From the NCBI RefSeq assembly GCF_034259325.1, contig NZ_JAXIVS010000005.1, positions 558,001 to 622,000 on the forward strand: a DNA stretch of 64,000 bases, in the 5' to 3' direction. A program made the position numbers and the translations under genes. The notes under the pieces are model-generated. The model was not told where the DNA came from and searched no databases. It saw nothing but the letters and a program-made list of their open reading frames with translations. This document shows positions 48,217 to 50,547 of the stretch, one piece after another; the first letter of the stretch is position 1, and every line of letters begins with the position of its first letter. The stretch is from Hyalangium ruber. Lineage in GTDB: Bacteria > Myxococcota > Myxococcia > Myxococcales > Myxococcaceae.

Positions 48217-49569
48217 CTATAACGGAGCGCTGCCCCCGTCGCTCGGGATGGGAGGCAGCGCCCAGAGCGACTGTCCGCCAACCAGCTTACGGCCAGGCGG
48301 CCCCCAGATCCCCGGGACCCAGAGCAGTCGCCCCTCGGAGTCCGTCACCACGGGCTGGAGATCCCGACGCTCGGCGGGCACTCGAAGGTCCACGAACACA
48401 TCTTGGAGCTTTCGCGATCCCTGGGCACCTGACACCCGATCGCCTGCTCGGCGCGTTCGCACGGTGAGCGGCCAGCGCGTGTCCTCGGGCAGCGTCAGGA
48501 CCAGCGCTCCTGGCGGCGCGGCCTGAGCGCTCACCTGGAAGCGCCAGCCCGTACCCTTTAGAAGACCCGCGGCCCCCGCTCCTTCCAACGTCAATGTGCC
48601 GCGCGAAGCGCCCTGGGGGCGGACACAGCGCACACTGCCTCCCGCCGCTCGGAGCTGGAGGCCCGCGCTCAGGGTCGCGGACCGTCCCCGCGCCACTGCT
48701 TCGAGGACCCGCGCGAGGGTGGCGTCATCCACCACGGCTCCTACCTGAGCGAGCAGCCGTGAGAGCACCCGCCGCCTCAGTGGGGGCTCCAGCGCGCGGA
48801 CGCCCACCGCGTCCAGGCTCCCCTCCGGCCGCACCAGCCGGCGCCAGGCCGTGTCCGCCAGCTCGCTCAGCAGCGCGTCGTCCTCGGCCGCCAGCCGCGC
48901 GAAGGAGGCCAGCTGCCGCGCCACCGGGAAACCCGCCGCCCGGGAGAGCGCGGGCAGCACGTCGTGGCGCACCCGCGAGCGGAAGAGCCGAGGGTCCTCA
49001 TTCATCGGATCCACCACGAAGCCCACCGACTGCTCGCGAAGGAACGCCTCGATCTCCCCACGCGTGCGCTCGAGCAGCGGGCGGACGAGCGTGCCCCTTC
49101 GCGACAGGACGCCTGCCGCGCCTCGCAGGCTCGTGCCCCGCGCCAGCCGCATCAGGAGCGTCTCGGCCTGGTCCGAGGCCGTATGCGCGGTGGCCATCGC
49201 CGCCAGCCCCCGCTCCAGGCGAACGGCCTCCAGCGCCGCGTACCGCGCCTCGCGTGCGCGCTGCTCCACGCCCGCTCCCGCCTTCAGGCGCAGTTGGCGC
49301 ACGTGGCACGGGAAGCCATGGAGCGCGGCCAGCCGCTCGACCGCCCGCACCTCCTCTACCGCCTCGGGCCTCAGACCATGGTCCAACGTGGCCACCTCCA
49401 CCGAGAGGCCCAGTCGCCCGCACACCCGGGCCGTGCCCTCGAGCAGCGCGACGGAGTCCGCTCCCCCCGAGACGGCGATCAGCACCGAACGGCGCTCCAG
49501 CCCGAAGTACCGGTACGCCGCTTCGAGCGTCGTCGTTATCAATGCGGTGGCAGGGCCGGTGCGGCGCAT
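48217..49569 (-). CDS. tilS: tRNA(Ile)-lysidine synthetase
   Basis: 450-residue PP-loop ATPase that adds lysine to C34 of tRNA-Ile(CAU), changing its codon reading from AUG to AUA. The P-loop is AVSGGADSVALL near residue 32. TLDHGLRPEA, HTASDQAETLLMRLARGTSLRG and RSRVRHDVLPAL are family blocks, and a C-terminal substrate domain ends in VPGIWGPPGRKL. The ATG at 49569 has no good Shine-Dalgarno sequence just upstream. It is the first gene of the leftward conserved block, with 180 bp to ftsH containing an AT-rich patch that may hold the ftsH promoter. Confidence 0.94.
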   Translation of the reverse strand: MRRTGPATALITTTLEAAYRYFGLERRSVLIAVSGGADSVALLEGTARVCGRLGLSVEVATLDHGLRPEAVEEVRAVERLAALHGFPCHVRQLRLKAGAGVEQRAREARYAALEAVRLERGLAAMATAHTASDQAETLLMRLARGTSLRGAAGVLSRRGTLVRPLLERTRGEIEAFLREQSVGFVVDPMNEDPRLFRSRVRHDVLPALSRAAGFPVARQLASFARLAAEDDALLSELADTAWRRLVRPEGSLDAVGVRALEPPLRRRVLSRLLAQVGAVVDDATLARVLEAVARGRSATLSAGLQLRAAGGSVRCVRPQGASRGTLTLEGAGAAGLLKGTGWRFQVSAQAAPPGALVLTLPEDTRWPLTVRTRRAGDRVSGAQGSRKLQDVFVDLRVPAERRDLQPVVTDSEGRLLWVPGIWGPPGRKLVGGQSLWALPPIPSDGGSAPL

Positions 49570-49732
49570 CGGTCAGAGGGGGGAATGGATTTTCCAACGG
49601 CCCGGTTACATCGAGCACCGTCGGTTGAAGGTGGTGGGGGTGGTTCTTATGCTCCTCATAGCCGGACGATGGGGGGAATGGTTGGGGCGGCAGCGGGTGT
49701 TGAGAATATTGATCTTCGAAACTTCATAGCGT

Positions 49733-49855
49733 TGGACCTAGGGGTCCCCCCCCTCCCCCTCTGGGTCCACGGGACCGCTGAGACTTGTTCTCCGCGGTCC
49801 CTCTTTCCGGAGCGCCCCGGGCTTCTTTCTCGAAGAAGCCCGGGGCGTTTCCCTT
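49733..49855 (+). ncRNA. Candidate small RNA with three stem-loops (Pxr-like)
   Basis: SL1 (49733-49769): TGGACC/GGTCCA with inner AGGGG/CCCCT closing an 11-nt loop that exposes a run of eight C (49746-49753). SL2 (49771-49801): GGGACCGC/GCGGTCCC plus inner GAGA/TCTC and loop CTTGT. SL3 (49813-49847): a perfect 15-bp stem with loop TCTCG, then TTTCCCTTTT. No plus-strand gene lies to its left, so a transcript must begin nearby; TTGAGA (49700-49705) could be its -35, but the -10 is poor. C-rich loops commonly pair with Shine-Dalgarno sequences. I recall that the M. xanthus developmental sRNA Pxr has a similar layout and a C-run; this identity is not verified. It could also be a leader or attenuator for the RHH genes. 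Confidence 0.6.
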
Positions 49856-49857
49856 TT
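49813..49857 (+). terminator. Strong intrinsic terminator
   Basis: CGCCCCGGGCTTCTT (49813-49827) and AAGAAGCCCGGGGCG (49833-49847) form a perfect 15-bp stem with a 5-nt loop, followed on the plus strand by TTTCCCTTTT. The opposite side has no T-tract, so it ends a rightward transcript. Confidence 0.8.
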
Positions 49858-50068
49858 GGGGCTCCGTTTCGAGGTCCTACCTCCGCCCCCATCTCCCCTC
49901 CTTTTCCACGCTCCCGGGATGCTTCCGCTCCGATAGAAGTCTCTTGACTGTCGGATGGCGCACCCCGTCGAAAGGGGCGTTGAAACCGTTGACCGGCTAG
50001 TTCGTCTGTCGGATAACCCCCCCGGTGTGTCTCAGGTCGTCACCTCGCATCCGCTCCGGAGACTCGGT

Positions 50069-50272
50069 ATGGCAGGCACCGACAAGCGCAAGCAATCGCT
50101 GTACTTCCCCGAAGAGATGTTGAAGGAAATCCAGGAGGAGGCGAACCGCCAGGACCGTTCCCTGTCGTGGGTGGTTCAGCAGGCGTGGAAGATCGCCCGC
50201 GAGCGCATCAAGGCCTTCCCTGCCGTCAATGATGTCACCGGCGACGAACGCCAAGATCCTCGCGAGGAGTAA
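50069..50272 (+). CDS. Small ribbon-helix-helix-like protein (first of a tandem pair)
   Basis: 67 residues from the ATG at 50069 (GGAG 8 nt upstream). The core RKQSLYFPEEMLKEIQEEA followed by RQDRSLSWVVQQAWKIA fits a ribbon-helix-helix fold: a strand KQSLYFP, then two helices with a SLSW turn, as in MetJ/Arc-type DNA-binding proteins. I recall a conserved small-protein family of this pattern in myxobacteria, without known function. A basic strand would contact the DNA major groove, so it may be a regulator. It is 8 bp ahead of a paralogue, making an operon downstream of the structured RNA candidate. Confidence 0.8.
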   Translation: MAGTDKRKQSLYFPEEMLKEIQEEANRQDRSLSWVVQQAWKIARERIKAFPAVNDVTGDERQDPREE

Positions 50273-50280
50273 ACACGAGC

Positions 50281-50547
50281 ATGTCGTCCACCGATCATCG
50301 CAAGCAGAGTCTCTACTTCCCGGAGGACATGCTCGAGGAGATCCAGCGCGAGGCGACGCGGCAGGACCGCTCGCTCTCGTGGATCGTCCAGCAGGCCTGG
50401 AAGGTAGCCCGCGGCGACATCCGCAAGATGCCGTCCGTCAATGACGTGCTCACGCCGGCGCCCAAGCCGGTCACCCCCGCGCCGGTGCCGGCGGCTGCCC
50501 CCGTGGCGGCGGCGGCGCCGACCGACGGCGAGCCCAAGCCCCAGTAG
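50281..50547 (+). CDS. Small ribbon-helix-helix-like protein (second of a tandem pair)
   Basis: 88 residues. The first 55 match the upstream protein closely (HRKQSLYFPEDMLEEIQ, RQDRSLSWIVQQAWKVAR, PSVNDV). The C-terminus adds a Pro/Ala linker (TPAPKPVTPAPVPAAAP) of about 30 residues without structure. Same strand-helix-helix core, so hetero- or homodimers with the neighbour are plausible. The ribosome-binding site lies in the end of the previous gene (GAGGAG). Tandem duplication is clear; function is not known to me. Confidence 0.8.
   Translation: MSSTDHRKQSLYFPEDMLEEIQREATRQDRSLSWIVQQAWKVARGDIRKMPSVNDVLTPAPKPVTPAPVPAAAPVAAAAPTDGEPKPQ

Follow-up and report, generated by a model that had tools for sequence, protein, structure and literature searches.

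We identify a conserved RNA gene beside tilS in Hyalangium ruber and across the class Myxococcia, and we give a probability of roughly 0.62 to the reading that its product is a stand-alone trans-acting small RNA, induced by a SigR-type stress response, that pairs through an exposed C-rich loop with G-rich ribosome-binding sites. The gene lies in the window, by which we mean the whole stretch of 64,000 nucleotides analysed (contig NZ_JAXIVS010000005.1, positions 558,001 to 622,000). Its three hairpins form a conserved RNA gene: the sequence is conserved, the stems covary, the strand and the synteny are consistent among relatives, a promoter motif lies upstream, and a sigma factor matching that motif is present. 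The RNA belongs to a known kind, the C-rich-loop sRNAs, as a previously unnamed new family.

Structure of the RNA and its locus

Positions 49733-49857 of the forward strand fold into exactly three hairpins (ViennaRNA), with a minimum free energy of -81.1 kcal/mol compared with -49.1 +/- 3.7 for shuffled sequences (z -8.75; 0 of 200 shuffles equally stable), which bears out the three consecutive hairpins described in an initial annotation of this DNA. The exposed C8 loop that the annotation placed in SL1 also stands, with C8, then U, then C3 unpaired in the predicted fold and an unpaired probability of 0.96-1.0 at 49745-49755 and of 0.87 and 0.67 at 49756-49757, as does its interrupted 12-bp stem in SL2 (Table 1). 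For SL3, described as a 15-bp perfect stem with a T-rich tail, stem and tail were both recovered, the predicted stem having 20 bp and not 15. Calling it a perfect terminator was an overstatement, since the tail (TTTCCCTTTT) is interrupted and the SL3 hairpin itself is absent from the sites of a terminator consensus scan, which returned two smaller sites overlapping SL3 (shuffled sequences, 0.5 +/- 0.8).

The 5' end of the RNA likely lies near 49709, upstream of the start given in the annotation; this position is read from the promoter motif and holds to within a few nucleotides, while the 3' end was placed from the SL3 hairpin and its T-rich tail. Extending the fold to the likely 5' end adds an unpaired leader only. 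The region had been described as free of coding frames, which is not strictly so: a chance 327-aa open reading frame (48964-49947, forward strand) spans the RNA and is partly antisense to tilS. We take the RNA to be non-coding because of its covariation and because loop lengths differ by one to a few bases among relatives.

Table 1. Features of the tilS-side RNA locus, in window coordinates
Feature	Position	Strand	Description
tilS (tRNA-Ile lysidine synthetase)	48217..49569	-	divergent neighbour
Predicted ECF (SigR/SigH-type) promoter	49675..49701	+	-35 GGAAT (49675-49679), 19-nt spacer, -10 GTT (49699-49701)
Proposed small RNA, ~145-150 nt	49709..49857	+	from fold, conservation and covariation
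SL1	49733..49769	+	12-bp stem and 13-nt C-rich loop; from fold and covariation
SL1 loop, UCCCCCCCCUCCC	49745..49757	+	exposed; proposed seed; includes CCUCC (anti-Shine-Dalgarno core)
SL2	49771..49801	+	8+4 bp with 1x1 internal loop; covarying stem
SL3 and interrupted T-rich tail	49809..49857 (hairpin 49809-49851, 20 bp predicted)	+	probable terminator in family f1
TIGR04563-family RHH-like gene 1	50069..50272	+	ATG read at 50069; searched stretch 50072-50272
TIGR04563-family gene 2	50281..50547	+	RHH-like

Conservation and covariation

Of 60 genomes searched with a 181-nt query, 37 had a match, H. ruber among them, and the best 30 matching loci all carry an identical 25-nt core, which occurs a single time in the H. 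ruber genome when up to three mismatches are allowed. Exact copies of the core were found in 47 contigs of a species-level collection, from Myxococcus (including M. xanthus AM003), Corallococcus, Pyxidicoccus, Archangium, Hyalangium, Citreicoccus and Anaeromyxobacter, from MAGs titled Myxococcaceae, Myxococcales, Archangiaceae, Deltaproteobacteria or Proteobacteria, and from one record titled Comamonas. The last, a contig of Comamonas sp. KCTC 72670 (L041:5694-5772), bears the myxobacterial RNA together with tilS (65% identity) and a TIGR04563 gene (97%), probably because the record has a wrong name or is a mixture.

The distribution was assessed with a covariance model of SL1 and SL2 only. 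This model matched 124 of the 145 genomes of the order, so that SL1 and SL2 recur in other myxobacteria, a comparison that the initial annotation had proposed. It matched 125 of 147 genomes of the class and 125 of 195 of the phylum, with no match outside the class among the 195 phylum genomes searched. The matches fall in families f1, f2, f3, f5, f6, f7 and f9, and one positive genome (G145) belongs to a second order of the class; its copy is also beside tilS and ftsH. Several of the 21 negative genomes of the order are fragmented assemblies, and the RNA looks truly absent from one genus (g20) with small genomes, in which three of three were negative. One genome (G036) carries two tandem copies 22 nt apart (L126:2001-2076 and 2099-2173).

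Covariation, likewise named as a check in the annotation, was examined over the 21 pairs of SL1 and SL2 in 87 aligned matches, 75 of them distinct. Standard pairs fill 98.5% of the pair cells, a count biased towards the model to which the alignment was fitted. Both sides have changed in 16 of the 21 pairs (10.2 in shuffles), and double-change cells number 177 (35.8 in shuffles, 10-38 in slid controls), all of these counts being inflated by the non-independence of related sequences. Among the 75 distinct sequences, SL1 shows both-side changes in 9 of its 12 pairs with 99.6% of cells paired, and the loop core CCC-U-CCC is invariant in all 75, the first C-run varying in length. Read on the opposite strand, the element would present a G-rich, quadruplex-like loop; we dropped this reading and assign the RNA to the forward strand, as first annotated, because pairing falls from 98.5% to 85.8% of cells. 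By eye, SL3 follows directly after SL2 in family f1 loci, and in several other families SL3 is missing and a T-run comes immediately after SL2, which is then probably the terminator.

Promoter motif and sigma factor

The motif GGAA(A/T)-N17-20-GTT is present in 57 of 84 distinct 100-nt upstream regions (shuffled mean 0.71, maximum 4), and in none of the 84 on the opposite strand or downstream. A scan over spacings of 8-29 placed 60 occurrences at 17-20 and 8 at the remaining spacings. SL1 follows the end of the GTT at a distance of 18-34 nt in 55 of these 57 loci, and at 54 and 68 nt in the other two. The SigR consensus is given as GGAAT-N18-19-GTT (PMC9205884; here and below, papers are cited from excerpts), and the window motif, with its spacer of 19, conforms to it; Corynebacterium glutamicum SigH promoters also agree with the motif upstream of the RNA (PMC10012870). 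The string GGGGGGAATGG occurs twice upstream of the RNA (49578-49588 and 49671-49681), and within the scanned 49601-49735 only the second copy sits in a GGAA(A/T)-N17-20-GTT pair.

The remaining 27 of the 84 upstream regions are without the motif. It is missing in 8 of 9 loci of family f7, and the ninth (L130) is the 68-nt outlier, though f7 has the sigma factor. The f7 loci L127, L128, L131 and L145-L148 have no GGAAT/GTT pair and share another conserved upstream stretch (around GGTTCTGRACGGT), which is possibly a different promoter. A sigma-70 candidate picked by eye, TTGAGA-N17-TTCATA, was dropped: a consensus scan reported no sigma-70 promoter at the locus, and position-wise conservation is weak there and strong at GGAA(A/T)-GTT. 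As possible marks of a promoter and terminator of its own, the RNA has the conserved motif and the 3' hairpin with its T-rich tail, and the scans yielded no sigma-70 promoter and only the smaller sites that overlap SL3.

Among the ECF sigma factors of H. ruber, one stands out by its much higher SigH_actino score (178.8 vs 102.1 bits). The curated cut-off of 251.55 was reached in 0 of 5 and 0 of 142 genomes, and because the sigma factor lies below it in all of them, "SigR-like" denotes resemblance only. The sigma gene is followed by a gene for a zf-HC2 zinc-finger protein, which is the usual layout of such sigma/anti-sigma pairs. A SigH-like sigma factor was found in 130 of 142 genomes at E <= 1e-38. 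A GGAAT-N18-GTT-like motif, sought in the 250 nt that precede the sigma gene, is present at 16 of 34 loci (L189, L190, L195-L197, L200-L204, L206-L210 and L214; shuffled 0.40, maximum 3; reverse strand 0), that is, at 15 of 19 loci outside family f1 and 1 of 15 inside it, with none upstream of the sigma genes of H. ruber and of genome G022. This pattern suggests autoregulation of the sigma factor, mostly outside family f1. In a tally made by hand, 116 genomes have both the sRNA and the sigma factor, 7 have neither, 14 the sigma factor only and 5 the sRNA only (Fisher p 2.9e-4, uncorrected for kinship and assembly gaps, which confound it).

The loop and its possible targets

An invariant loop carried on covarying stems is the pattern that a base-pairing seed would show, and the exposed C-run could pair with purine-rich ribosome-binding sites, its duplexes being predicted at -21.3 kcal/mol with GGGGAGGGG and at -8.1 kcal/mol with GGAGG. 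Long complements in mRNAs were rejected as a footprint of targets, since the 12-nt complement GAGGGGGAGGGG is not enriched in either of two genomes (23 in H. ruber vs 20 for the reversed control; 5 vs 8 in the second), and one match in each of the two is the antisense of the RNA gene itself. By eye, the starts of the RHH genes and of tilS beside the RNA show no extended complementarity to the loop.

The same observations could be read without base pairing, with the C-rich loop acting as a protein-binding site, for example as a sponge for a KH/S1-domain protein or as a site for Rho. The loop sequence is indeed unusually strictly conserved and its long complement is not enriched, both of which would suit a protein ligand. 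We nevertheless consider this reading unlikely, given that the C-rich-loop sRNAs sX13 and NfeR1 act on mRNAs, that Pxr is thought to do so, and that the loop includes the CCUCC anti-Shine-Dalgarno core in a predicted open state.

Relation to Pxr

The initial annotation raised the possibility of a Pxr homologue, which holds for the architecture of the RNA and not for its membership in the family. The window locus scores 22 bits (E 0.1) against the Rfam Pxr model (RF01812), whose gathering threshold is 80 bits, and none of 15 loci of the tilS-side RNA, the window copy included, matches at E <= 0.5. The true Pxr of H. ruber scores 128.9 bits on another contig (L031:1501-1608; G000:C3:474446-474553, reverse strand), where it is flanked by a GNAT gene and a sigma-54 response regulator, as in the pxrR-pxr-pxrA arrangement of M. 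xanthus. A published pxr primer is an exact match to the 3' end of this gene. At E <= 0.001 Pxr was detected in 93 of the 145 genomes, 61 of which exceed the cut-off; every one of the 93 belongs to family f1. Orthology is therefore rejected.

What the two RNAs have in common is three stem-loops, a C-run in the SL1 loop, a 3' terminator-like stem, hosts in family f1 and a host without Hfq (PMC5684412). The loop reads C7-A-C4 in Pxr and C8-U-C5 in the window RNA, each C-run being broken by one base. Pxr differs in its locus between nla19/pxrR and pxrA, its sigma-54 promoter, its other stems and its narrower distribution, whereas the neighbours of the window RNA are tilS and the TIGR04563 genes. 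In M. xanthus, Pxr no longer blocks development once the fifth base of its loop is changed (PMC5684412), and the direct targets of Pxr were described as unknown in 2025 (excerpt of PMC11928866). The resemblance to Pxr is real at the level of a possible working mode, not of membership.

A diverged member of the Pxr family, an old paralogue that also gates development, would account for the shared architecture of three hairpins with a singly broken SL1 C-run and for the weak Rfam score, and Pxr paralogues are described in Cystobacter (PMC5568312). We regard such an origin as decidedly unlikely. The score is far under the gathering threshold and none of the 15 loci matches at E <= 0.5, the true Pxr resides elsewhere in the same genome, no sigma-54 regulator lies beside the window RNA, and some families that carry the RNA, f5 and f7 for instance, gave no Pxr match at all. 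As a separate observation, Northern blots that were probed for Pxr SL1 and include delta-pxr lanes have bands labelled non-specific in their legends (excerpt of PMC5684412), and these bands may in part be the tilS-side RNA through cross-hybridisation.

Neighbouring genes and termination

A divergent tilS adjoins the RNA in 86 of 87 loci, and the exception has just 456 nt of upstream sequence. A TIGR04563 gene is within reach in 61 of the 87 loci and in none of the other 26, some of whose stretches are short; where the two adjoin, the gene begins ~100 to ~585 nt beyond the end of the SL2 match. We do not consider either TIGR04563 gene of the window part of the RNA unit, the type of gene 1 being a frequent downstream neighbour.

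The annotation had offered as a second option that the element is a 5' leader or attenuator of these downstream ribbon-helix-helix genes, and same-strand TIGR04563 genes do follow the RNA in most f1 and many f5 and f7 loci. This role is very unlikely because the RNA persists in the 26 loci in which such a gene was not found and because the gap varies so widely. The RNA moreover closes with a stable hairpin and T-rich stretch, either SL3 and its tail or SL2 and its T-run, and no alternative antiterminator fold was noticed in an unsystematic inspection. That the element is a mere transcription terminator or boundary between tilS and the RHH genes is more improbable still: stable hairpins with a T-rich tail, and two terminator-like sites overlapping SL3 where 0.5 are expected, would fit, but a terminator has no need of an invariant C-rich SL1 loop, and a conserved promoter-like motif lies upstream on the same strand.

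Relation to other C-rich-loop sRNAs

The tilS-side RNA combines a conserved exposed loop with a conserved structure, as C-rich-loop sRNAs do, and no family of Rfam 15 matches within the window at curated thresholds. In description it resembles alpha-r14/NfeR1 of rhizobia (RF02344), a 123-nt Hfq-independent RNA of three hairpins with an exposed CCUCC-type anti-Shine-Dalgarno motif (PMC10746234). NfeR1 differs in having a sigma-70 promoter and in carrying its motif in three places, CCUCCUCCC standing in unpaired parts of three hairpins, whereas here the C-rich loop is confined to SL1 and reads UCCCCCCCCUCCC. Membership of alpha-r14 was rejected: full-length scores of 33.4 bits, and of 44.8 bits in one orthologue, are both under the gathering threshold of 58.8, and 14 of 15 loci, the window copy included, have no match at E <= 0.5. 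None of 8 genomes exceeded the cut-off, and the H. ruber genome has no match at E <= 1. The likeness to alpha-r14/NfeR1 is likely convergent.

CcsR1-4 of Rhodobacter sphaeroides carry an anti-Shine-Dalgarno-like motif. They resemble the tilS-side RNA as sRNAs of an alternative-sigma stress network, but theirs is the RpoE/RpoHI/RpoHII network, and they are co-transcribed with the upstream gene ccaF1 (PMC8307010). The Xanthomonas sRNA sX13 acts, independently of Hfq, through C-rich apical loops on G-rich motifs near start codons (PMC3771888); it has three C-rich loops against one here, and the comparison is one of description, not of sequence. PmaR of Agrobacterium also engages its targets by an accessible C-rich loop, but it is a single spoon-like stem from another phylum whose described targets are mostly up-regulated (PMC6234868). 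We found no tilS-linked or second C-run sRNA of myxobacteria in the excerpts of open-licence literature that were searched. Differentially expressed sRNAs are mentioned in M. xanthus (excerpt of PMC9548883), and an unnamed record of the tilS-side transcript may exist among them.

Proposed mechanism and significance

For the expression of the RNA, its induction by stress, its mode of action and its targets, we infer the following course. The gene would have been inherited vertically in the tilS upstream region within the class Myxococcia. Stress would free the SigR/SigH-like ECF sigma factor from its zinc-finger anti-sigma, and the freed sigma would transcribe the gene from GGAAT-N19-GTT, a motif recognised by its conservation and presumed to be used in this way. 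Transcription would stop at SL3 or, where a family has none, at SL2. The product would be a highly stable RNA that does not depend on Hfq, whose gene is stated to be missing from myxobacteria (PMC5684412) and which sX13 (PMC3771888) and NfeR1 (PMC10746234) also do without. Held open by SL1, the invariant C-run-U-C-run loop would pair with G-rich Shine-Dalgarno regions (GGAGG or GGGGAGG type) of several mRNAs and block ribosome entry. We propose this pairing because the loop is invariant on covarying stems, because of the predicted base-pairing energy, and because sX13 and NfeR1 set precedents. The tilS-side RNA is thus probably a stress-triggered translation brake, distinct from Pxr.

A broader and quite tentative idea is that two C-run-loop sRNAs work side by side in these bacteria, Pxr under nutrient status and sigma-54 and the wider-spread RNA under stress and a SigR-like ECF sigma, with similar seeds that compete for overlapping G-rich ribosome-binding sites. 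If this were true, the translation of genes for growth and development would be a point where stress and nutrient signals meet. In the excerpts of myxobacterial literature searched, no sRNA other than Pxr was found to be characterised functionally. A second, more widely conserved C-run sRNA, with an invariant loop core and a stress-sigma motif, offers a test case in M. xanthus, and it bears on two questions: whether both RNAs work through the C-run, and whether one translational brake serves stress and development in bacteria without Hfq.
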